Source: [Phialemoniopsis] sp. UDSM-2020
Taxonomy: Eukaryota > Ascomycota > Sordariomycetes > Thyridiales > Thyridiaceae
DNA length: 64,000 bases
Direction of reading: 5' to 3'
Assembly: GCA_018873225.1 (NCBI GenBank)
Contig: JAEILZ010000002.1
Location: 4,030,001 to 4,094,000 of the forward strand
Position 1 is the stretch's first letter, and each line of letters begins with the position of its first letter. The position numbers and the translations under genes were made by a program. A model generated the notes under the pieces. The model ran no database searches. It was not told the DNA's origin and worked only from the letters and a program-made list of their open reading frames with translations. Positions 3,879 to 31,763 of the stretch are shown piece by piece.

Positions 3879-5567
3879 CTAACGAGCCCCGTTGCTGCCA
3901 TTCGTAAGCGTCGCCTCCGGTCTGACGCCGTTCTGCTCGCTGTACTTGACGCCTTCGGGGAGTGCCTTGGCACGTCCTGTAAGTCGTAGGTGGACAGGGT
4001 CATCGCCAATCTCCTCCATCTTACACTCCAGCAGCTTCGTCATGTGTCGTACGACCTCCTCATGCTCCGGGTCATTATAGATGTTGAAAAGCTCCAGCGG
4101 GTCCTTTTCGCAGTCGAACAGCTCCCACTCCTTCTCTTCCTCCTCCTCGGTGTTCTCAGCCTTGCCGGGCCGTGCCCCCAAGACACCGAGCGCCTCGTTA
4201 TACCAGTAGATCAGCTTGTACCGGCAGTCGCGGACACCATAGTGTGCGTACGCTTGGTGGATGACATCGTTGTGCATCCAATAGCGGTGGTAGGCCACCT
4301 GCTGCCAGTCTTCTGGAGTTTTGCCTTGGAGAAGGGCCCGGAAAGAGAGACCCTGCATGTAGTTGGGCACTCTCAAGCCTGCCAGGTCCAAGAACAAAGG
4401 AGCGAAATCGACATTGCAGATGATGTCGTCGCAGACACTAGCCGCTTGGATCTCGGCTGGGAAGCGGGCAAGGAAGGGCATCTGAAACGATTCCTCGTAC
4501 ATGAATCGCTTATCAAACCAGCCATGTTCACCCAAAAAGAAGCCCTGGTCTGAGGTATAGATCACAAGCGTGTTCTCAGCCAGTCCGTTTTGGTCCAGAT
4601 ACTCCAGCATCCGGCCCACGTTGTCGTCGACAGACTGGATAACCCGGAGGTATCGCTGCATATAGCGCTGAAACTTAAAGGCTGACAGTTCGGCCCCGTT
4701 CTTGAACGTGAAAACTGTGCCGTCCTCTTTGTCGATGAGCTTGACACTAGGATCGGTAGGAACCTTGCGCTGATTCGAGCCCGACTCTTGCTTTACGCGC
4801 GTGCCGAGGCGGTTGCCGCCCTCAGGCTGCACCAGCCCAAGATCCTGGTAGGTCAGGTCCTCGGCTACGCGCATCTTGGCAACGCGTGCCGCCTTGGCGC
4901 GGTTCCTGTAGTCGTCGTTGTACGTCTCGGGCACCTTGATGGGCTTGTCGGCATACAAGCCCTTGTGCTTCTCGTCGCACTCCCAGGACCGGTGGGGCGC
5001 CTTGTGGTGGCACATCAAGAAGAAGGGCTTGTCCGAGTCCTTGGTCTCGTCAAGCCAGTTCAGAGACTTATCGGTGATGATGTCTGTAACGTATCCTTCC
5101 TCGTCGACTTCGATGCCTGGGGCGTCGGGCTTGGCCCGGTTCATCTCGATGAACTCCGGGTCCCAGTAGTCGCCCTGCCCAGGTAGCACCGACCAGTAAT
5201 CGAATCCCGTGGGCTCATGGTCGTAGCCTTCTCCCAGATGCCACTTGCCAACCATGGCTGTCCGGTAGCCGCCTGCACGTAGATGCTTGGCTACGTTGGG
5301 CATGTGCTTGTTGATCTTGTTGTCCAGGGTCATCACGCCGTTAACGTGATTATGCGTGCCGGTCAGAATTGCAGCCCTCGACGGCGTGCAGATGGAGTTT
5401 GTGACATAGCAGTGGTTGAACTTCATGCCCTCAGTGGCCAGCCTATCGATGTGTGGCGTGTGGTTGATTCCCGCACCGTAGGCGCTTATGGCTTTCGACG
5501 CGTGATCGTCCGCCATGATGAACAAGATGTTGGGCCTCTTGGACGCCATCTTGTCAGTTGCGTGCAT
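3879..5567 (-). CDS. S1-family sulfatase, apparently cytosolic
   Basis: A single exon of 562 codons from ATG 5567; an internal ATG at 5549 (MASKRPN) is an equally good start. The open frame extends upstream to 5810, but that part looks like 5' leader. The protein opens with RPNILFIMADDH, the metal-binding Asp pair of the alkaline-phosphatase-fold sulfatases. It carries the C-T-P-S-R formylglycine signature at Cys60, then TAMVGKWHLG, PFFLMCHHKAPH and YTSDQGFFLGEHGW. The C-terminus has the usual WELFDCEKDPLELFN segment. No signal peptide is visible, unlike the second sulfatase at 29.8 kb. The family hydrolyses sulfate esters; fold and motif order resemble bacterial glycan sulfatases, so a sulfated sugar is possible. 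It is divergent from a hexose-type transporter, which supports uptake-then-desulfation; this is inference. Confidence 0.9.
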   Translation of the reverse strand: MHATDKMASKRPNILFIMADDHASKAISAYGAGINHTPHIDRLATEGMKFNHCYVTNSICTPSRAAILTGTHNHVNGVMTLDNKINKHMPNVAKHLRAGGYRTAMVGKWHLGEGYDHEPTGFDYWSVLPGQGDYWDPEFIEMNRAKPDAPGIEVDEEGYVTDIITDKSLNWLDETKDSDKPFFLMCHHKAPHRSWECDEKHKGLYADKPIKVPETYNDDYRNRAKAARVAKMRVAEDLTYQDLGLVQPEGGNRLGTRVKQESGSNQRKVPTDPSVKLIDKEDGTVFTFKNGAELSAFKFQRYMQRYLRVIQSVDDNVGRMLEYLDQNGLAENTLVIYTSDQGFFLGEHGWFDKRFMYEESFQMPFLARFPAEIQAASVCDDIICNVDFAPLFLDLAGLRVPNYMQGLSFRALLQGKTPEDWQQVAYHRYWMHNDVIHQAYAHYGVRDCRYKLIYWYNEALGVLGARPGKAENTEEEEEKEWELFDCEKDPLELFNIYNDPEHEEVVRHMTKLLECKMEEIGDDPVHLRLTGRAKALPEGVKYSEQNGVRPEATLTNGSNGAR

Positions 5568-6408
5568 CTTGGAGTTGGCTGAAACTCTCTCGAAGCTCGT
5601 CACAGCACTGGATCTCCAATGGTTGAGGTGGGTAGAGACCAAGTGTGAAGCTGACGAGGCGGCGGTATGGCTCGAGTGACCGCGTATTTGAGAGATGCTA
5701 GGGAGTTGGTGCTTAAGCTTGGAGGCTCTTGGAAATCGCGCAACCGAGAGTACAACCTCTGGACAGAAGCATTCGATATCACGATACTGTGAGCTGAGGG
5801 ATGGTGTCAACTACCGACACACAGTGCCCGGTCGTAAACTCGGATGTCGGCCTCCTCCGAACATCGCAGCTGCTTCTCCACACAAGCAATAGAGGTGCGT
5901 CAAAGAATTCTACGGCTGGCTTGTGGAGCCCTCGGCTCTTCGATCTGACATCGCAAGAGGTGGTTCACTCATTTTGCAGGTCCCGTGTGAGCGCCGCCAC
6001 TGACCATGGTGGGGACATTATGGCGGAAGTCGGTCTCGGATGTCTCAACTCGGCCTAGACTGTCCCCATATCCAGAGCCGGGGCTCCAGATCTCGTCTCG
6101 GTACTAGCGGATCAGTCCAGATCATTCCCACACCTTGCTGGTGCCTCCTGATCCCCGGGATGGTGCCACGATTAACGGCAAATCTTTGTGTTGAGTCCAA
6201 GTCCTGGAAAGACTCGGAGTCATGGCTCGGCACATTCAAAGTCATCTTGCACGCGTGTCGCGACCATGTGTGTTGGCCTAAACAAGAATCTGCAAGGCCT
6301 TCATAAAGTCGATCATGGTCCTCTCTCGTAGAAAAATGTCTGAACATCCGGACAGTCTCTGAAACAAGTCAATCGAATTGAACAAGGCCGAAGAACCGTG
6401 CTGTAATA
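5568..6408. promoter_or_regulatory. Shared divergent promoter, sulfatase / MFS transporter
   Basis: An 841-bp region separates the starts of the minus-strand sulfatase and the plus-strand transporter, so both promoters must lie here. It contains a CGG-N6-CCG inverted triplet at 5848-5859, the spacing bound by Ppr1-type Zn2Cys6 dimers. No gene is recognised in it. Confidence 0.45.
5848..5859. promoter_or_regulatory. Candidate Zn2Cys6 binding site, CGG-N6-CCG
   Basis: An inverted CGG pair with a six-base spacer inside the divergent sulfatase/transporter promoter. Zn2Cys6 dimers typically bind such triplets, and two such regulators flank this region. Chance occurrence in 841 bp is quite possible, so this is only a candidate. 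Confidence 0.3.
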
Positions 6409-19739: not shown

Positions 19740-21531
19740 ATGAGCATGTTGCGTTTCATTGCCGCCTTGGCGCTGGGCCTCAGTGGCACGGTCCTCGCCG
19801 CACCAACGACTGGCGACTTTGAGGCTTCGGACTTCAATGTCACTGAGGCACTCCTGCAGCAGGGCGTCGATGTCGACCAGATTCCTGCTCTGGACGACTT
19901 CAATACCACCTCGGCGGCCGAGAGGCGGTCCGCGGACGCCACCTACCCCACAGACAAAGCTTGCTCTGCAGCTGTACGTACCCGCCTGGTATCCTTCTCT
20001 TACCATCAAACATACTGACGCAAAGTGTAGTGCGCGTCTTTAGGGTTCCTCTACGGCAGCAATGCCGTCTATAGCAGGGGCAAGGCTACCTACGAGACTT
20101 TCACCAACTCTTATTGGTCAGACAATCAGGCCCAGGTCAACCCCTACTGCATCTTCAAGCCTTCCAAGGCTGCAGATGTGTCCGTGGCTGTCCTTCTCGC
20201 CCGACTGACCCAGTGCCCGTTCGCTGCCAAGAGTGGTGGCCATGCTGCCATGGCCGGCGCCTCCAGCGTCGAGGGTGGCATCACCATCTCGTTCGCCAAC
20301 ATGAAGACTGTAGCCCTGTCCCAGGACAAGAAGGTTGCGTCCATTGGCCCGGGTAACATCTGGGGTGAAGTCTTCGCCCAGCTCACCAAGTCTGACCTTA
20401 CCGTCATTGGTGGCCGTTTGTACAACATTGGTGTTGGTGGACTCACCACTGGCGGTGGAATCTCGTACTTCTCAAACAAGTATGGTTGGGCTTGTGACAA
20501 TGTCGACAGCTACGATGTAAGTAGCGAGCACATCCTAGTCCTTCTTCAGACACCGCTTACTGACTTTCAATGGCAAGGTTGTCACTGCCAGCGGTCTGAT
20601 TGTCCGGGCCTCGGCCACCAAGTATCCCGATCTGTACTGGGCGCTGCGTGGAGGTGGCAACAACTTCGGTCTCGTCGTCAGCTTCAACCTCAAGACCGTT
20701 CCCCTACCCGCCGGCAAGCTCTGGGGAGGTTCAAGGATGTACTTTGAGGACCAGTTCTTGGGCGTTGAGAATGCCTTTGTCGATGTCATCGCGAACTCGG
20801 CCCAGGACCCCGACGCTGGCCTCTACGTCGTCTACGTCTACGCTGGCGGCGCCAAGATGGTGCTGCCCGCCCTATACCACATGGACCCCAACGGCGGCAG
20901 CTCGAGCATCTGGTCCGGCTTCGACGCTCTCTCCCCCATCACCGACACCACCAAGACCCGCGTCCTGGCCGAGTGGGGTGCCGAGACCATGAACGACAGC
21001 CCGCCCGGTCTGCGCGAGATCTACTACGTCATGACCATCAAGGCCGACCCTACGACCCTGACCTTCGCCCGCGAGTACTTCTTCGACACCGTCAGCGCCG
21101 TCGCCGACATCCCCGGCATCATCCCCAACATCGTCTTCCAGGGCATCACGGTGCCGCAGATGCAGCAGATGAAGAAGAGCGGCGGCAACGCCCTGGGTCT
21201 CGACCCCAACGGCGGCCCGCTCTACATTATCCAGCTCTGCGGCATGTGGACCAACGCGTCGGACGACGACAAGGTCTACTCGTGGATGTCGGGCGTCATG
21301 GACAAGATCAAGGCCGAGGCGAGGGCGCGCGGCGTCGACAACGACTACCTGTACATGAACTACGCCAGCCAGTTCCAGGACGTCATCGGCAGCTACGGCG
21401 CGGCCAACAAGGCCAAGCTCAAGAGCATCGCCGCCAAGTACGACCCTGCCGAGGTCTTCCAGAAGCTGCAGCCGGGCTACTTCAAGCTTGACCGTGCGCC
21501 AGTCACGGGGTCTGGCTACTACAACTTCTAG
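19740..21531 (+). CDS. Secreted FAD-linked oxidase, berberine-bridge-enzyme-like
   Basis: Three exons (19740-19973, 20031-20516, 20578-21531) give 557 codons. Residues 1-20 are a clear signal peptide ending LAAPTT. The PCMH-type FAD domain shows CPFAAKSGGH, where the His is the usual 8-alpha-linked flavin attachment residue. GGRLYNIGVGGLTTGGGISYFS and KYGWACDNVDSYDVV follow, then LYWALRGGGNNFGLVVSF. The C-terminal berberine-type segment ends in NYASQFQDVIGSYG and YDPAEVFQKLQPGYFKL. Such enzymes oxidise alcohols, sugars or amine-containing natural products outside the cytosol or in vesicles, and are common tailoring enzymes. It ends 322 bp from the convergent RiPP-like precursor gene. A role in oxidising that peptide is attractive but is inference. 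Confidence 0.9.
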
Positions 21532-21853
21532 ATATCATGTCGTAATTATACATATAACACCTACTTATGTCCGTTTGGCATGTTTGTAACTGTGGAAAAT
21601 TATTTCTTCTTGTGTTTGTCGAAAACTACCTCTGTGCCGCTCAAGGTCGACGTCATGAACCGCTTACGTGGATGAGCTGTCGAGCCGGAGGACGAATCCT
21701 CGGCACGGCCCCATCATTCAACCGAATCCGTCTTGGCAATGCGACAATCACACCTCACGAGTTCAATATCAACCTCATGCATGACACGAATGTGATGTTC
21801 TTGTGCTTTGCCAAGCAGAAGATAAACCTTCCATCCTGGCCTAGATGTATAAA
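21532..21853. other. Convergent 3' region between FAD oxidase and precursor gene
   Basis: 322 bp between two gene 3' ends, presumably both 3' UTRs and terminators. No gene is recognised. Confidence 0.5.
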
Positions 21854-22295
21854 CTAAAAGTCGTCCTCCTTCATCTTCAAGAGATGAGCACCGTAAACTT
21901 GTGGAAGCGCCTCCGCCTCTGGCTCCCGCTTCTTGAAATCATCTTCCTTTGTCTTGAGTTGGTGCGCACCATAAACCTGTGGAAGTGCCTCTGCCTCCGC
22001 CTCCCGCTTCTTGAAGTCATCTTCTTTCATCTTGAGCTGGTGGGCGCCATAGACCTGCGGGAGTGCCTCTGCCTCCGGATCCCGCTTCTTGAAGTCATCC
22101 TCCTTCGTCTTGAGTTGGTGAGCGCCATAGACTTGGGGAAGGGCGGCAGCTTCGGCTTCGGCTATGATTTAGGACAGCGATTAGAAGGATGATTGACGAA
22201 AATCTGAACAGGTTCAACTTACGGGCCGCAACTGGAGCAGCAGCAGCGAGGCCAGCTGCACCCAAAACTACAAGGATGGCGTTGGAAAAGTGCAT
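21854..22295 (-). CDS. Secreted repeat precursor peptide, putative dikaritin/KEX2-processed RiPP precursor
   Basis: Two exons (22295-22223 and 22161-21854) with a 61-nt intron give 126 codons. Residues 1-20 are a signal peptide ending in four Ala. The rest is four tandem copies of a 26-residue unit starting at residues 32, 58, 84 and 110, each beginning LPQVYGAH. The units are separated by KKR kexin sites at 49-51, 75-77 and 101-103. After each KKR come Asp/Glu-Pro/Ala dipeptides (DPEAEA, EAEAEA, EPEAEA), the kind trimmed by Ste13-type aminopeptidases. Each unit keeps one Tyr, the residue cross-linked in dikaritins, and ends KEDDF. Only Gln/Leu and Thr/Met vary between copies. This is the architecture of ustiloxin, phomopsin and epichloecyclin precursors, and a UstYa-family gene is divergent from it. 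Alternatives are an unmodified KEX2-processed secreted peptide or a pheromone-like peptide. It lacks the Cys/Trp pattern of Sordariomycete alpha-pheromones. Confidence 0.85.
21857..22141 (-). repeat. Four tandem 78-bp coding repeats
   Basis: Repeat units occupy 22141-22064, 22063-21986, 21985-21908 and a partial last copy at 21907-21857. The eight codons of LPQVYGAH differ between copies only at third positions, so peptide identity is kept while DNA has drifted. Confidence 0.9.
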
Positions 22296-23057
22296 GTTTG
22301 GATCTTCTCATGTATGCAGGAGGACTGATGTGAACATTGTCTTGAAGCAGTTTGCCGGATACAAAGATGTCTTAAGAAGAATGGGAAGAATGTGCACTGG
22401 TGAACATGTCAGCCTGCAGACATAGCCTGCGAGATCAGAGCTTATCTGCTGCATAGAACCTTCCTCTTCTGGAAGTATATAGCCCGAGACACTGACGACG
22501 CCGGAGATCTTTGCTGGTCTGTGATGCCGACGAGGCAGATATTCAGACTTCATGGCAACTCCGGTTGGTGAACCATTGAACAAGAAGCGGCCGCTCCTCA
22601 CCTGGTCATTGACCCGGTCGACGATCACACCAGAAAAGGGAGGCGCGAATATTCGACCTTCCGAGAGTGTGTAGCGGTTTTGCGGGGTTGATATTGTACT
22701 AAAGCACTCTTGCAGACGATGATACTTAGATCCTGTTTCCGCCCCCAATCTCAGTGGCGAGCTCCGGTCAGAGCGTCAGCATTACTGTGTCACAACTGCA
22801 AATGCCTCTTATATTACCTGCCTGTTTTGATTGCATCCTCCGAGTAGTGCCCGCTGATAGAGGGGTCCGGATAATAAACTCTTGAAGGAGTTTAGAGCGG
22901 CGTCATCATTGACCATTGCGATCACCATGGATTTGCTGTAGCCACAGCGCCATATCCGCATGCCCCCAACAACTCAATAAACTTTCTTCTTGTTTTATCT
23001 AGAGTACACGACACTTTCGAAGAGCTTCATCGATACAATTCGATCACACTCTCAATC
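22296..23057. promoter_or_regulatory. Divergent promoter of precursor and UstYa genes
   Basis: 762 bp between the minus-strand precursor start and the plus-strand UstYa start. Any shared regulator of the RiPP pair must act here. No gene is recognised in it. Confidence 0.45.
22476..22482 (-). promoter_or_regulatory. Candidate TATA box of the precursor gene
   Basis: CTATATA on the minus strand, about 180 nt upstream of the precursor ATG. The distance allows a leader. It is a weak motif that could be chance. Confidence 0.3.
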
Positions 23058-24032
23058 ATGAAGTACGAACAGATCAGCCAGTCTGAGGAGACTTTATTGC
23101 AGAGCGATGGAGTGTCAACGCCAAGGCGCTCTATCAGAAACCGCCTTAGGAGTTTCCTAGGAGCATCGATTATCTTTAACGTCCTGTTAGCGATTGCTCT
23201 TGCGCTCCTCGTCATCGAAAGGCAGGCTGGGCCGCTCTCATCACCAGCCAACAATTGGCTTCGACAAACATCTTATTACTGTAAGGTGACCCTTGTTAAT
23301 TGCTGGACAGTGCACTAACAAGCTATGATAGCACCATTATGGGGAAGGGACGTCGAAAAGAAGTTCAAGAAAGTTGATAAACTGTTCGACGGCAGTCTTT
23401 TTGAGACTAAGAATCCCTCGATCTATCGGAATCGTCTTGCACCAACCGAAGATGTAGACAAAGCTTGGCAAGAGATCGAGTGGATTCGCACATTTCCCAT
23501 CACAGCCGATGATATTCGGGGCATTGGTAAGGATCCCGAGCTGGCTGTCAAATTCCCGCCCGAGTATGGATTCGGCGAGGACGCATATGTCGCTCAGCTC
23601 GACATCTTTCATCAGCTCCACTGTCTCAACCTCCTTCGACACATTGCCTGGGGCGAGTTCACTCGTGACGGCGTGACAGCAAAGCGCCCATATTCAGATC
23701 TGCATTGGATCCACGTCGCCCATTGCACGGAGGTGCTTCGCGAGAATCTCATGTGCAGCGCGAACCTGGATGTCATCACTTTCAATTGGAAGGAGACGCA
23801 GGACCTACCGTTCGCGGACTTCAATGTGAATAAAAAGTGCTCGAACACGGAGATCTTGATGGAGTGGCAGGAGGAGAACACGGTTGTGGCCGAGAAGGCG
23901 AGGAACTTTACGCGGCCGCCTGGAGCGAAACAGGTGCCTATCAGCGATGAGTACTTCCGGATCTTTGGGGTTGAGAAGGTCAATCTTCACGCTGGAGAAG
24001 CACATGAACATTCATTCAAGGACACATCATGA
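23058..24032 (+). CDS. UstYa-family (DUF3328) peptide-cyclising oxidase
   Basis: Two exons (23058-23280, 23332-24032) with a 51-nt intron give 307 codons. The N-terminus has the typical UstYa layout: an acidic start (EETLLQSDG), a basic stretch, then a single transmembrane helix at about 33-53, making a type II membrane protein. The lumenal domain carries both diagnostic HxxHC motifs. They are H168-QL-H171-C172 in the context FHQLHCLNLLRH, and H202-VA-H205-C206 followed by TEVLRENLMC. The SPLW...VEKKF segment after the anchor is also typical. Known UstYa proteins catalyse oxidative cyclisation in ustiloxin and related dikaritin pathways. The divergent gene encodes a kexin-type repeat precursor, which strongly supports that role. 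Only one UstYa-type gene is visible here; many clusters have two or more. Confidence 0.92.
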
Positions 24033-24392: not shown

Positions 24393-27049
24393 ATGGAGGT
24401 TATCGGTGGCGCCGCGAGCGTCAGTACGATCGTTGACTTGGCTGCCAAAGTAGTAGCCCTTTGTTCGAACTACGTCATGGCCGTCCGGGCAGCTACAACA
24501 GAGATTCTACGTCTCCAACGGCAGGTCCAGAGCCTGGAAACCATTCTAAAGCATGCCACGCGTCTTATTGAAAGCTCGGATGGCCAAAGTCTCCCGGTAT
24601 CACGCGAACTTGACAGCGCACTTCGCAAATGTCGAAGCGAATTAGACAATGTACACGCGAAGCTTGAAGTCACTATACCACGTCGAGCCATGCAACGGGT
24701 TGGAATTCGTCACCTCAAGTGGCCATTCAAGAAAAGTAATGTTGAATGTATTGTTGCTTCCCTTGCAACTCACCAGCATACTATTGCAGCTGGGTTACAG
24801 ATTGACCAGACGTAAGTCCTACCAAGAAGCACTCATGGTCATCAGCTCACTCGCGTCAAGGGAGATCCTTTTGGATATTACAAAACGTATTGAGGTTCTG
24901 TCCTTACAAGCAGCCCCTGTCGACACCCCAGTGGCCTTCAAGCCACACTTCATCCTGCCCTTTCCCCGTGATCCCGATTTCGTCGAACGGCCGGCATTTC
25001 ACGCGTGGATTGAACGACAGTTCGCAAATCAAGCGGGTCGTATAGCACTTGTCGGGCTGGGGGGATTCGGGTAGGACGAATTTGAAATATGGCAATTTCT
25101 CGATATGCAGCTAATAAGGTCTCAGAAAAACCCAGATAGCGATTGAGTTTGCTCACAGAACACGCGATGCCACACCTGGTCTCAGCATTCTTTGGGTCCG
25201 TGCCAGCACGAAGGAAACTTTCCAAGATTCATATCGGTCGATCGCAGACACATTCATGCTTCCCCTCCGCCATAGTCCCGATGTCAATATCCTCAGGCTT
25301 GTCCGCGACTGGCTTCAAAAAGAGGATACAGTATCGTGGCTGATGGTCTTGGATAATGCCGACGACGAGAATCTCTTCTCCTCTCCTCAAACAGGTCATA
25401 GCTGTGACCACGAACCACTCAGCTCCTTTCTACCGAGGACGGGTAACGGAAGGATTCTGATTACAACGCGAAATATTAACGTAGCAGAGAAGTTGACCGG
25501 AAACTACAAGTTCATTCAAAGAATGCCAGCTATGGAAAGTCCTGAGGCTTTGAAAATCCTTTCGAACAAGCTAAGGGACGAGTTTGACGGAGATTCATGT
25601 GAAGCACTGGTCCGCGCGCTCGACTTCATTCCGCTTGCTGTAAGTCAAGCAGCTGCATTCATCAATCGACGCTCGCCCCGCGTAACAGTGGAGTCATATT
25701 TGGACGATTTCCGTCAGAGCGAAACCAAGAGAACTAGCCTTCTTCATAGTGATGCTGGTGATCTTCGGCGCTACACCAGCGTTTCCAACTCTGTTGTTGT
25801 GACGTGGCAAGTCACGTTCGAACAGATTGGTCGAGAATGCCCAGCAGCAGTTGATCTGCTTTCACTGCTGAGCTTTTTTCAACCTCAGAATATCCCAGAA
25901 TATATGTTCTCACAATCAAGCCACGAAGAACCAAGCAACGAGGAGAACCATAGCAGGATTGCTGATAGCGATTTTGAAAACAATCTGGATGTTCTTAGAG
26001 CATACTCGCTAGTAGATGTTTGTATCAAGCGTGGCATCTTGAAGATGCACCCGCTCGTTCAATTCTGTACAAAAAGTTGGCTTTCACAGCATGGTCGCTT
26101 CAAGCAGTTCAAAGATCTCTTTCTTGATCTGAGTGCAAGACATTTTCCAAGGGGCCGGTTTGAGTCATGGGCTAGGTGCCAGGAGATGTTTCCTCATGTG
26201 CAACCTCTCTTACTAGATCAGCCTACAGACGACGAGAATATGCTCGTGTGGAGCCGTCTGCTAACGAACATATCGCGTTATATGGGGTCGATAGGGGATT
26301 ATCGTAATGGCGAAGTCAATGCCGAAAAGGCGGTTTGGATAAGAAAACGGATCCTCGGAGACCAACACCCTGACACTTTGAATAGCATTGCCGACCTTGC
26401 AATCATATACAAGGAGCAACGTCGATGGGAACGGGTCGAGAGACTATGCCTGGAGCTTATGAGAAAGGGAAAGAGGGCACTTGGAGACGAGCAGCCTTGC
26501 ACACTCCAGAGTATGACAACCCTGGCAGCAGTATATCGAAGTCTTCGACGACTGGCAGAAGCCGAGACGCTAGAGTTGCAGGTACAAGCATTGTGCAAGA
26601 GAACTCTGGGAGAAGAGCATCGCGACACCCTGCGTAGTATGACTAACCTGTCAAATATCTGCTGGGACCAACACAGGTTTGCGGAAGCCGAGGAACTACA
26701 AAGCCAGGTGTTAGAGACGTATAGGAGAATCCACGGGGTGGAGCATCCCATTACTCTAATCTCCATGGAAAACTTAGCAAACACCTATCGAAAGCAAAGT
26801 CGATCTTTAGAAGCAGAGGCCCTTTTGGTGAGGGTTCTTAAGACGCGAGAGAGGCTGTTAGGAGACCATCCTGACACGCCGGCCGCCAAATACAACCTGG
26901 CGTGCGTACTGTGGGATCGGGGTCGTTTGGATGAGGCCCAAACCTTGATGCAGGATTGTCTATGCCAAACCCAACAGTTATATGGTGTAGAGCACCCAGT
27001 GGCAGTAGCTCGTTTGAAGAAATTAGAGCAGTGGGGACGTGGTAGGTAG
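24393..27049 (+). CDS. STAND/NLR-like protein: HeLo-like N-domain, NB-ARC, TPR
   Basis: Three exons (24393-24811, 24861-25070, 25126-27049) give 850 codons in frame. Residues 1-140 are a helical fungal STAND N-terminal (HeLo-like) domain (GGAASVSTIVDLAAKVVAL and a coiled-coil-like middle). The NB-ARC ATPase has P-loop GLGGFGKT at about 205-212, split by the second intron. The Walker-B-like WLMVLDNADD, the GRILITTRN sensor and the DFIPLAVSQAAAFI helix follow. The C-terminal 250 residues contain about six kinesin-light-chain-type TPRs, with GDQHPDTL, GEEHRDTL and GVEHPITL turns. Such proteins act in fungal heterokaryon incompatibility and innate-immune-like cell death. The first intron is read as 49 nt; a 34-nt alternative is in the same frame. 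The repeats are diverged from each other, unlike fast-evolving WD/TPR allorecognition genes. Confidence 0.85.
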
Positions 27050-27488: not shown

Positions 27489-28866
27489 TCAAGAATCTTT
27501 TGGTCGACAAAAGGGCCGAAGCCAAGGGTACTTCTTCTCAACCTCGGGGCCGACTGTCCAATTCTTCCCATTGCGGATGTGAGCTTTGAATATCGGATTA
27601 AGGGCGAGATGGCGCCCATCAGCAGATTCTAGAATGGCACCGGAGTCTGTATACGGCCACTTGACGGAAAGGGTGCCGCCCGTCAGTTGGCGGAAGCTCG
27701 GAAAGTCGTTCCAATCCATCCTACGCTGAATGACGAGATCTCTAACATCTGGCCTGCTTCGAATTAGTCTATACGAAAACTCGACATAAGATACATCAAG
27801 TGACATACCATGTGATCAAATCTATCCACGCTGGATGCGGGACGGTACATTGGAGACGAGTAGGTTTCATGAAGTCGGGGACATGGGCATAGCTCTGCTT
27901 GTCGCGGCGAAGATACCAACGCAGAAGCTGCGCGAGGATGTACATGAAGGCTATTCTCTCCGTCAGACCCTTGACAGATGATTTCCACACCTGAGCCGCG
28001 ACAAGCTCTGAGAGTGGGCGCGATTTATCCGCTTCTGCTGAGGGATTGAGTAGCGAAGATATGCTCGGAAATGTAGCCTCGTTCAGCTCGTTACCCGGCT
28101 CTGTCAGCGGGCGGGAGGCGGCTAGCACTCCGTGGATGAGCCTGTCTAATTCACAGGTAGGTGGAGTATGGGGCGGTATGATCTTCCAGTCCGCCTCATC
28201 ATCATTTTCCTGGGTCTCGTTTAGAGGGTGGTCATTTCCAGGTGGCTTGACGACATCGCTCCCGGGAATGGGAGGGATCGTGGTGTCCTCGAAGGGGTCA
28301 GGGTATATCGAGTCGCCCAAGCCAAAATCAAGAAACCGAAACCCTTTGCCGCAATCCATCATGTCCACAGTCATGCCAAGGTCGAAATCAAGAGGCAGGT
28401 TCTGAAATCGGGCATCCGCCATCCCCTCGGTGAATCCGCCTAGCTCAAGTTCTTCCCCGTCGTACCCTTGACAAGCGCTTGCAATGGAGGAAAATAAGGA
28501 CGACGCTGCCTCCGTGAGATGCGCGTCATGCATGTCCGACACGGAGTCTCCGACTGGAAGTGTCTGACTTGGGAAGTCGACTCCGCCGGGCGAAGCGACG
28601 GCTGCAGAGGAATGCGGAGGACTGAGCGGGATCTGTGATTCGTACCTGCTCAGCCTTTCGTTTGCCTCTGCGAGCTTCTGTGATAGCTCGGCGACCTGCC
28701 TCTCCAGATTCTCGACGCGTGCTTTCTGTTTGTTCCGGCAGTGCCGCTGGTTGGCTCGATCAATGGCCCTCTTCTTTTCCACCTGCCACGCCGTCATATT
28801 CGACACTCTCCGGCTGCCCTTGTCGTCGCCCTTGGGCTTGCTGTCGCCTCCCTGGCTGTCCCCCAT
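27489..28866 (-). CDS. bZIP transcription factor with DUF3425 C-terminal domain
   Basis: Two exons (28866-27809, 27753-27489) give 440 codons; the intron splits a Trp codon. The basic region and zipper lie at about residues 25-75 (KKRAIDRANQRHCRNKQKAR, then ENLERQVAELSQKL). The middle is acidic and Pro/Ser-rich. The C-terminal 150 residues match the DUF3425 domain that accompanies this bZIP class (YILAQLLRWYLRRDKQSY, VPDFMKPTRLQ, WIDLITW, then DVRDLVIQRRMDW and the PIF...YPWLRPF end). This bZIP/DUF3425 family is abundant in filamentous ascomycetes and includes regulators of development and secondary metabolism. It is divergent from a secreted sulfatase, so control of sulfur acquisition is possible, but nothing in the sequence proves that. 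Confidence 0.88.
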
Positions 28867-29820
28867 TGCCGTGAGCAGTCTTTCTGAACAGTGTGAGCGC
28901 TATTTCTCTCCTATTGGAAGACGATTGGGTTCAACAGCGCTGAATTTAGGGAAGTCCAAAAAGAGGACAGTCCTCGTGGGGAAAGTTGGTGGGCGAGATC
29001 AATGGCCGGAATGGGATGGGGGAATCAGTTCTCCGGTAAGGTACAAGTATTTTAAGACGGGCACGCCATTACCTGGCTGGGTCGCGTATTGGTATCGACG
29101 GCCTCCCAATGGTCCTGGTCGTCACACATTTAGTTTCACTGCGCTGTCGAACCTAGTCAACCGATGTCGTCTTGCGCTTACCAAGGTTCCGAGACCAGAT
29201 CTTTACTCCAGACATACAAACAGAAGAAGAGATTACCGTTCTGTAGGCGAAAGAGCTGCGTCCTCGACCCATGGCCCTGAACAAACCGTCCGATTGCTAC
29301 ATGTACACATCCTTGACTTCCTTCTCTCTGCACATTAGCGATTACCCCGCGAATCCACAAATTTAGATCAAGGTTTGGAGATGTCGTGACTCTAGACTTC
29401 AACCAACCTAGCCAGGAAATTGTTTTCCTAGCCTCACTTCTCCTCACGCCTAGCTGGGCCAGCGGGTGGGGATGGCGAACGAAGCGCTGATCCCTGCAGC
29501 AAGTGGTGCCGGACACCGTGGTAGCGCCCCATCGATTCCCGTCACCCATGTCTACACATGTCATGTTAGTGCCATGCGGATCGCGTCAACTCCCACCAAC
29601 ATGACAGCAGGAGCACAAAGCTGTTGTGAAACTGGAGCTCTGATCGTTTGTGCATCGTAGTCAAGCTCGGGGAGCTGGAGTCATGCTTGCCCATGGTGCT
29701 CCTATAATAAAAATCAATGATGCCTAGGATGCTTAGCCGTGGGAGCTCTCCTGCTCCATTTTCTCCCATGTCTCAATTGCAGGTGAGCTGCAAGAACAGA
29801 ACCAAAGAAACACAGCCATC
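28867..29820. promoter_or_regulatory. Divergent promoter region, bZIP / secreted sulfatase
   Basis: 954 bp between the two start codons. It must contain both promoters. Several open frames cross it, but none carries a domain signature. Confidence 0.4.
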
Positions 29821-31763
29821 ATGAGATCAATCGTAACCAGTGTTGTCGCCGGCCTCGCGTTCGCCGGCAAGGCGACTGCTGCCACCTCGAAGCCCCCCAA
29901 TATCCTCTTCATTCTCACAGATGACCAGGACTGGCACATGGAATCGATGGCGCACATGCCGTTCCTCCAAAAATACCTGATCAATGAAGGCACAGTGTAT
30001 TCCAACCACTACTGTACTGTCGCACTTTGTTGTCCGTCACGAGTGAACATGTGGACTGGTCGAGCAGCACACAATACGAATGTAAGTTCTGCACTCTCAA
30101 TATCAGGGCTTTGCATTGTACAACGGGTAACATCTGTGACTAGGTCACGGACGTCTGGGCACCATATGGCGGATATCCCAAGGTCGTGCGCGAAGGCATC
30201 AACGAGAACTACCTCCCGACGTGGCTTCAGGACGCCGGGTACAACACTTACTATTCTGGCAAGCTGTGGAATCAGCACTCGGTCGAGAACTACAACAACC
30301 CGTACGCCGGCGGCTTCAACTCGTCAGACTTTCTTCTGGACCCCTATACCTACCAATATTACAACCCAGTGATGACCCGCAACGGTGCGCCGCCTGTTCA
30401 CTACAAGGGCGAGTACTCCCCAGACCTCACAGCCGACAAGGCCTACGGCTTCCTCCGCGAGGCCATGTCCCACGACAAGCCCTGGTTCGTCGTGCACGCG
30501 CCCATCGCCTGCCACGGCGACGTCAAGCTGCTCGGCAAGGTCGTCCAGGATAAGCCCGGGGTGGCCAAGCGCCACGAGCACCTGTTCAAGGACTACGTAA
30601 TCCCGCGCGACGAGTACTTCAACCCGGAGGTCCAGGGCGGCGTGAGCTGGGTCAAGCGCCTGCCGCGCCTTAACGACACCGTCGTCGAGTACAACGACGA
30701 GTTTGCGCGGTCGCGCCTGCGCTCGCTGCAGTCGGTCGACGAGATGGTCGAGAACATGGTCAAGATGCTCGACGAGGCGGGCCAGCTCGACAATACCTAC
30801 ATCTTTTACACAACTGATAACGGATATCACATTAGCCAGCACCGCATGCACCCCGGTAAGGAGTGCGGTTTCGAGACCGACGTGCATATCCCGCTCATTG
30901 TGCGCGGGCCAGGCGTGCCGGTCGGCCACATCTCCAATGCGGTCACTTCGCACACCGACATCGCCTCCACTATCATGGAGCTGGCGGGTGCGCCGATTGA
31001 CTCTGACGGCACACCCATTCCCTTGACCCTGGATGCCGAGGCTGACGCGAAGATTGAACACGTCACCATTGAGTTCTGGGGCCTTGCTATCCCCGAGGGC
31101 ATCTGGGGCTGGTACGGCAACCACAGTATGTCTGGTGGAGGCTATGACGCTGGTGCAACTGCTGTCGGCAACAATACCTACAAGGCCGTTCGTGTCATCA
31201 GCCCACAGTACAACCTGTACTACTCTGTCTGGTGCACGCACGAGAGCGAGTTCTATGATCTCACTGTAAGTGATATCCTGACCACGGCTTGGTCTTTCAA
31301 ATATTTGCTAATGACTTCTCGATAGAATGATCCTTTCCAAATGCGGAACCTGCTTTCGGATGAGCACAAGTCCCTGGCTGAGGACTTCCGCTTGGGTGAC
31401 CGTCCGCTTGATCAGATCGCGGAGCGTCTTGACGCCCTGATGATGGTGCTCAAGTCATGCAAGGGCGAATCATGCGTCAACCCCTGGAAGTCTCTGCACC
31501 CCAAGGGCGACGTCTCGAACCTACTGCAGAGCATCGATGACAAGTATGATGACTTCTACAAGAATCAGCCCAAGGTCAGCTACTCCCGTTGCGAGCTTGG
31601 CTACATTGTTGAGGCCGAGGGACCTCAGGACTTCGATGTCTATGGGCAAAAGAGCGGCGGTGTTGGCAATATCTTCGACAGTGAGGCCTGGAAGGAGCGC
31701 ATGATTCGTCTAGGTGCGCCTGTCAAGTTCAAGTACCAGGGCGACTTTAGCATCTGGACCTAG
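29821..31763 (+). CDS. Secreted arylsulfatase (S1 sulfatase)
   Basis: Three exons (29821-30081, 30144-31265, 31326-31763) give 606 codons. Residues 1-21 are a signal peptide, then PNILFILTDDQD provides the metal-binding Asp residues. The formylglycine signature C-C-P-S-R has its reactive Cys at residue 70 (ALCCPSRVNMWTG). Downstream are YNTYYSGKLWN, IFYTTDNGYHISQHRMHPGKE and several N-glycosylation-type sites. The size and long C-terminal extension match fungal extracellular arylsulfatases, which free inorganic sulfate from aryl or choline-type esters when sulfur is scarce. It is the second sulfatase in 25 kb and is not closely similar to the cytosolic one. The bZIP gene is divergent from it. 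Exact substrate is unknown. Confidence 0.9.

Follow-up and report, generated by a model that had tools for sequence, protein, structure and literature searches.

Dikaritins such as ustiloxin, phomopsin and asperipin-2a are ribosomally synthesized and post-translationally modified peptides (RiPPs) whose precursors combine a signal peptide with Tyr-containing repeats split by dibasic sites, and whose genes adjoin a gene for a UstYa/DUF3328 protein with two HxxHC motifs. We find the same arrangement in the stretch of DNA analyzed here, 64 kb of contig JAEILZ010000002.1 from [Phialemoniopsis] sp. UDSM-2020 (positions 4,030,001 to 4,094,000; hereafter the window), where a short repeat precursor gene and a UstYa gene stand head to head. 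The window locus is unlike these systems in its core, YGAH as opposed to YAIG or YVIP in ustiloxin/phomopsin and FYYTGY in asperipin, in its 26-residue unit with a conserved stretch of 15 residues, and in having one UstYa gene and no tyrosinase match within the 64 kb. The early definition of dikaritins comprised five genes including a tyrosinase; clusters without one or more of them were accepted later.

The epichloecyclins (from GigA) likewise stem from a kexin-type repeat precursor with Tyr in the unit; they are nonapeptides with the N-terminal Ile cross-linked to an internal Tyr (PMC9233826), whereas the window unit is devoid of Ile. Umemura 2020 counted 7878 KEX2-processed repeat proteins (KEPs) of 838 types and DUF3328 with 22% of these KEPs (PMC7329392); the window resembles the types that have DUF3328 neighbours, both in overall architecture and in its immediate surroundings. 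Ascomycete alpha-pheromone precursors, too, have KR-bounded repeats followed by X-Ala/X-Pro dipeptides, but the window peptide contains neither Trp nor Cys and WCPIRGQPCW is encoded by a separate gene of the fungus. According to PMC7329392, pheromone KEP genes do not lie near DUF3328 genes, apart from three exceptions. According to a 2022 review only five dikaritins have been reported from filamentous ascomycetes (PMC10512285); candidate precursors number thousands (PMC7329392).

We read the window locus as a dikaritin-type RiPP module of minimal size, with two genes: UstYa would oxidize the Tyr of YGAH and kexin would free the units. We give this reading a probability of about 0.72. A preliminary description of the stretch had proposed a dikaritin-type pairing, which is borne out by a kexin-type repeat precursor beside a PF11807 gene, by selection on the repeat and by recurrence of the layout at 10 of the genome's 18 UstYa loci. 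The class of cyclic peptide is already known and the window peptide would be a new representative of it: a search of literature texts gave no match to its unit, the core of which that description had called unfamiliar, though supplementary tables of large surveys may list it.

A selected repeat precursor and its probable UstYa partner

The precursor gene consists of two minus-strand exons that together encode exactly 126 residues (Table 1). The conserved part of its unit reads L-P-Q-V-Y-G-A-H-[QL]-L-K-[MT]-K-E-D-D-F; successive PQVYGAH anchors lie 26, 26 and 26 residues apart, KKR closes units 1-3, and unit 4 ends in EDDF followed by the stop codon. Tandem Repeats Finder (TRF) reported this repeat and no other tandem array in the window. 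Of the 87 pairwise nucleotide differences between the units, first codon positions account for 3, second positions for 10 and third positions for 74. Amino-acid differences amount to 10/120 in the coding frame versus 27 to 72/120 in the other five frames, and the mean proportions of synonymous and nonsynonymous differences (pS and pN) are 0.92 and 0.056; for units 2 and 3, none of 20,000 random placements was as low in amino-acid changes as the observed one. Because the changes between units are mostly silent, it is the precursor peptide, not its DNA, that is kept by selection. The unit contains no Ile, no Trp and no Cys, and in all four linkers an intact ladder of X-Ala/X-Pro dipeptides precedes Gln (AP-VA-AP-EA-EA-AA-LP, DP-EA-EA-LP, EA-EA-EA-LP and EP-EA-EA-LP).

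Relatives of the precursor were found in two other sources. The first search, which scored the 7,993 candidates with most words in common, gave P0001 (Coniochaeta sp. PMI_546, 100 residues; E 5.4e-30, 67% identity over 79%), and P0001 as query (6 candidates) matched P0061, a protein of 67 residues from an 'lgn' record on a short contig, probably metagenomic. When the nine units of the window precursor, P0001 and P0061 are aligned over 17 positions, 11 of these show no variation (Q-x-Y-G-A-H-x-L-K-x-x-E-D-D-F), and the Tyr, within YGAH, is kept in 9/9. The basic tails read KKVKR in P0001 and KKAKR or KKVKR in P0061; the final unit of P0001 likewise stops at EDDF without a basic tail. Since the final units of the window precursor and of P0001 need no trimming, EDDF would be the mature C-terminus. 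The X-Ala/X-Pro ladder is broken in 5/5 linkers of P0001 and P0061 and is therefore not a core feature of the precursor.

The UstYa protein of 307 residues matches PF11807 with 163.9 bits (cut-off 25; E 6.8e-48) and carries the HxxHC motifs HQLHC (residues 168-172) and HVAHC (202-206). In an alignment of 38 sequences, i.e. 37 of the 59 protein-search matches plus the window protein, H168, H171 and C172 never vary, and at least 90% of the sequences have H202, H205 and C206. A hydrophobic segment at residues 35-53 fits a membrane anchor; this anchor and the signal peptide of the precursor were called by hydropathy only, and the splice sites of the window genes are predicted models. The nearest named UstYa relatives come from Coniochaeta, namely strain 2T2.1 (68% identity over 99%) and PMI_546 (P0006; 81% over 72%). 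The contigs given for P0001 and P0006 both measure 3,643,859 bp, so the two genes very likely sit on one contig, a co-location at contig level only; the partnership of precursor and UstYa is thus likely kept in a second genome. The interval between the divergent start codons in the window is likely a shared promoter region, and the two genes may be co-regulated. The picture of this pair in the preliminary description held up well: its 126-residue precursor with four 26-residue repeats agrees with the gene model and the anchor spacing, with KKR after the first three; the divergent gene does have both HxxHC motifs and the N-terminal hydrophobic segment; and the match in the DUF3328 profile search that it had suggested as a check strongly favours its reading.

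A DUF3328 macrocyclase is reportedly copper dependent, going by the title of a 2025 paper by Chiang, Ohashi and Tang (JACS 147:8113), and by analogy the window UstYa may be so as well. The precursor would enter the endoplasmic reticulum; the membrane-anchored UstYa, which probably recognizes its substrate by the flanking LKMKEDDF, would oxidize the Tyr that never varies within Q-x-Y-G-A-H, and the oxidized Tyr would be linked to a nearby side chain. Kexin would cleave after KKR, and Kex1 would remove the basic tail to leave ...EDDF. At the other end, the X-Ala/X-Pro ladder may be taken off up to Gln by a dipeptidyl aminopeptidase, and the finished peptide would be secreted. Profile searches of the genome gave one match for P_proprotein (kexin) and two for DPPIV_N. 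For the trimmed units the calculated linear monoisotopic masses are 1777.8635 (QVYGAHQLKTKEDDF), 1807.8563 (QVYGAHQLKMKEDDF) and 1792.8818 (QVYGAHLLKMKEDDF), and one cross-link would lower each by a calculated 2.01565; the masses of the untrimmed units are 2588.24, 2629.27 and 2630.23. According to section 7 of PMC7329392, the frequency of Tyr in repeat units is 65.6% beside DUF3328 genes versus 38.2%.

Head-to-head precursor-UstYa pairs across the genome

A PF11807 profile search of the source genome (44.2 Mb, 11 contigs) gave at least 34 stretches, which we grouped into 18 UstYa loci including the window; around them we read 20 kb at nine loci, 6.9-9 kb at eight, and the window in full. A strict scan for KR-separated repeats (at least 3 copies of a 4-mer and at least 5 such words) found 7 arrays in 7/18 loci, none of them farther than 2.03 kb from a UstYa stretch; no array was found in the 189 kb lying >2.5 kb from UstYa stretches, nor in five rounds of shuffling that preserved base composition only. 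Frame-shadow rows at L019, L024, L028, L029 and L044 and one weak GCGR row in L032 were dropped before counting. With L028 (C6) and L039 (C11) added by a looser scan, and L021, an imperfect repeat upstream of the UstYa gene at C5:2262479 found by eye (LYIPALYES twice), a repeat or repeat-like precursor is present at 10/18 loci (7 strict, 2 loose, 1 by eye). At all ten the nearest UstYa stands head to head with the precursor; on C1, C8 and C9 there is another UstYa stretch in tandem, slightly farther off. For the eight pairs of the strict scan and L028, such an orientation throughout has a chance of 1.5e-5 at 1 in 4 per pair, a figure in which possible common ancestry overstates independence. 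DUF3328 genes are described as peaking at the position adjoining the precursor gene (Umemura 2020, PMC7329392); no statement on the orientation of the two was found in sections 6, 7 and 9 of that paper.

The units of the seven strict arrays are mostly unrelated (Table 1). Besides the window, these arrays are L019 (C9), L024 (C1), L026 (C8), L029 (C9), L032 (C5) and L044 (C5). A precursor intron was modelled at a similar place in L028, L029, L032, L044 and L021; the precursors L024 and L026 need no intron, and L019 yielded no gene model. Trp is present and Tyr absent in the units of L032 (WLWK) and L044 (RNGAWG), so Trp may be the residue targeted by the UstYa proteins encoded beside them. L039 (L039:3-546, C11:573502-574045, minus strand) shows a His-His repeat (KREPHHQGKGKKGKK), truncated by the end of the stretch read, head to head with a UstYa gene, and L021 (L021:8480-8922, C5, minus strand) additionally contains VYFATIYD and APQEVYGPTKLY; it may show a young or decaying state of such a repeat.

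The UstYa genes closest to that of the window lie on C5 (44% identity over 148 of 235 residues), C6 (41% over 148) and C9 (39% over 209), each with its own head-to-head precursor. On C6 this is L028, with a signal-peptide exon, a 55-nt intron, 150 residues and units of the form VRP[FY]YDGHQLAFKE...KLY[QAK]R. Window and L028 units have Y-x-x-H-x-L-x-x-K-E in common, and the only in-frame matches to Y..H.L..[KR]E in the 0.30 Mb read at UstYa loci are in these two precursors, four in each. It thus seems that oxidase and precursor were duplicated as a pair and that the core drifted later. The few residues kept in both units include Tyr and His at a spacing of three, and because of this we also consider the speculation, which we hold to be rather improbable, that the two loci represent an undescribed RiPP precursor family defined by the Y-x-x-H-x-L-x-x-K-E unit, in which UstYa would join the Tyr to the His three positions on, or the product would be a copper-binding Tyr/His ring, the modules spreading as head-to-head pairs while their cores diverge quickly. 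If this were true, one fungus would make ten or so different cyclic peptides.

Neighbouring oxidase and alternative readings

The preliminary description had assigned the peptide to a pathway of three genes, the third encoding a secreted flavoenzyme 322 bp away. The gene and the 322-bp gap between its end and the precursor stop codon were found as described; the label 'BBE-like' appears loose, as FAD_binding_4 is matched above cut-off (86.1 bits) and BBE below it (18.3 bits versus 20.6). The best solved relative of the protein is EncM (E 4.6e-33). That this oxidase also tailors the peptide is suggested by its proximity, its secreted look and its being an oxidase; moreover, a FAD_binding_4 gene lies within 6 kb at 2/18 UstYa loci where 0.27 are expected (P ~0.03). 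However, the gene is convergent on the precursor and thus has no common promoter with it, and FAD_binding_4 is common in the genome (56 stretches, reduced to 50 places by removing six exon fragments of listed genes). The two FAD-bearing loci are the window and C4:6222498, and the latter showed no precursor. At the nine precursor-bearing loci besides the window, not one of the 50 places is closer than 12 kb; this holds for the C6 sister as well, where the nearest is 69.5 kb away. Because of this absence the FAD oxidase is probably a neighbour of the pair, one that might assist without being a defined part of the module. From the proposed pathway, precursor and UstYa therefore stand, upheld by the PF11807 match, the selected repeat and its recurrence, whereas participation of the third gene appears unlikely.

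A second alternative is that the locus makes a linear secreted hormone, with kexin, Kex1 and a Ste13-like peptidase freeing unmodified QVYGAH[QL]LK[MT]KEDDF and UstYa acting elsewhere. The best argument for it is provided by the window linkers, all four with intact X-Ala/X-Pro ladders in register with Gln; also, many KEP products are linear (PMC9769878). Yet in P0001 and P0061 the ladder is kept in 0/5 linkers, whereas the Tyr is kept in 9/9 units; a conventional alpha-pheromone gene with four WCPIRGQPCW copies is present elsewhere, on C1; and precursors recur beside UstYa genes. We hence consider a linear hormone quite improbable. The alpha-pheromone copies (L012-L015, C1:7422262-7422768) lie ~10 kb from one of the two DPPIV-type genes (C1:7410950-7412071), which is possibly Ste13-like. 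Finally, an accidental pairing of precursor and UstYa, or a non-coding repeat, is extremely improbable given the bias of changes towards third codon positions, the precursor relatives in two other sources and the recurrence of the pairing in the genome.

Several observations weigh against a two-gene dikaritin-type module. The unit lacks the Y-x-I core of ustiloxin/phomopsin, as well as any Ile, and is long (26 residues versus 13, 14 and 8 in characterized cases; PMC7329392). The intact ladders in 4/4 window linkers are an alpha-pheromone-like signature, and according to PMC6339444 X-Ala/X-Pro signatures are generally reserved for alpha-pheromones and absent from cyclic-peptide/epichloecyclin precursors. 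A tyrosinase (PF00264) was not matched in the window, the nearest on the same contig being at C4:4305554. At 8/18 UstYa loci no precursor was seen, a negative that is weaker for the six read short, and of the three junctions in L028 just one has a dibasic site (KR), with QR and AR at the remaining two. Neither precursor search (both restricted by length; 7,993 and 6 candidates) gave a protein from Fusarium or Xylariales, though UstYa relatives occur there; co-location of the genes in PMI_546 is resolved to contig level only; and UstYa proteins are described as acting outside RiPPs, too.

Window features and significance

Table 1. Features of the window locus and repeat units found at UstYa loci
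Feature	Location	Strand	Basis
Secreted-looking FAD-dependent oxidoreductase (PCMH type), 557 residues, introns 19974-20030 and 20517-20577	19740..21531	+	gene model, domain matches
Precursor exon 2: four 26-residue units, then stop	21854..22161	-	splice model, TRF, codon-change analysis
Precursor intron, 61 nt, GTAAGT...TAG, directly past the signal-peptide-like stretch	22162..22222	-	splice model, separate model search
Precursor exon 1: start codon and signal-peptide-like stretch MHFSNAILVVLGAAGLAAAAPVAA(P)	22223..22295	-	splice model; same exon in separate model search
Space between divergent precursor and UstYa start codons, 762 bp	22296..23057	.	gene models
UstYa/DUF3328 oxidase, 307 residues, 51-nt intron 23281-23331	23058..24032	+	PF11807 match, family alignment, gene model
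Unit LPQVYGAH[QL]LK[MT]KEDDF	window		strict scan
Unit RQILPYKITTF	C9		strict scan
Unit SPDILYNNAAGWGR	C1		strict scan
Unit VEPAYVWASPG	C8		strict scan
Unit AADYIYPIP	C9		strict scan
Unit TDAD[SN][VI]WLW	C5		strict scan
Unit DAALRNGAWG	C5		strict scan

Next to the UstYa gene lies an NLR-like gene (24393-27049, plus strand). Its PigL_N start (24393-24812) precedes NB-ARC, matched weakly and below cut-off, and tetratricopeptide repeats (25118-27049). This gene is followed, ~3.5 kb from the UstYa gene, by a bZIP-like/DUF3425 transcription-factor gene (27489-28866, minus strand; DUF3425 over the Pfam cut-off, bZIP below), a candidate local regulator. Two sulfatase genes are also present in the window (3879-5810, minus strand, and 29737-31325, plus strand).

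The value of the locus lies in its short, well-conserved Ile-free unit, its clean two-gene layout with a diverged sister, and the many head-to-head modules in one genome; this layout, seen at 10/10 precursor-bearing loci, is a practical rule for finding more. With two genes, one short conserved unit and one UstYa, the locus represents a very small test case, and the sister pair on C6, with related oxidases and related but different units, offers a natural comparison. It thereby bears on how UstYa proteins recognize their substrates and on which residue becomes the partner of Tyr in a unit without Ile.

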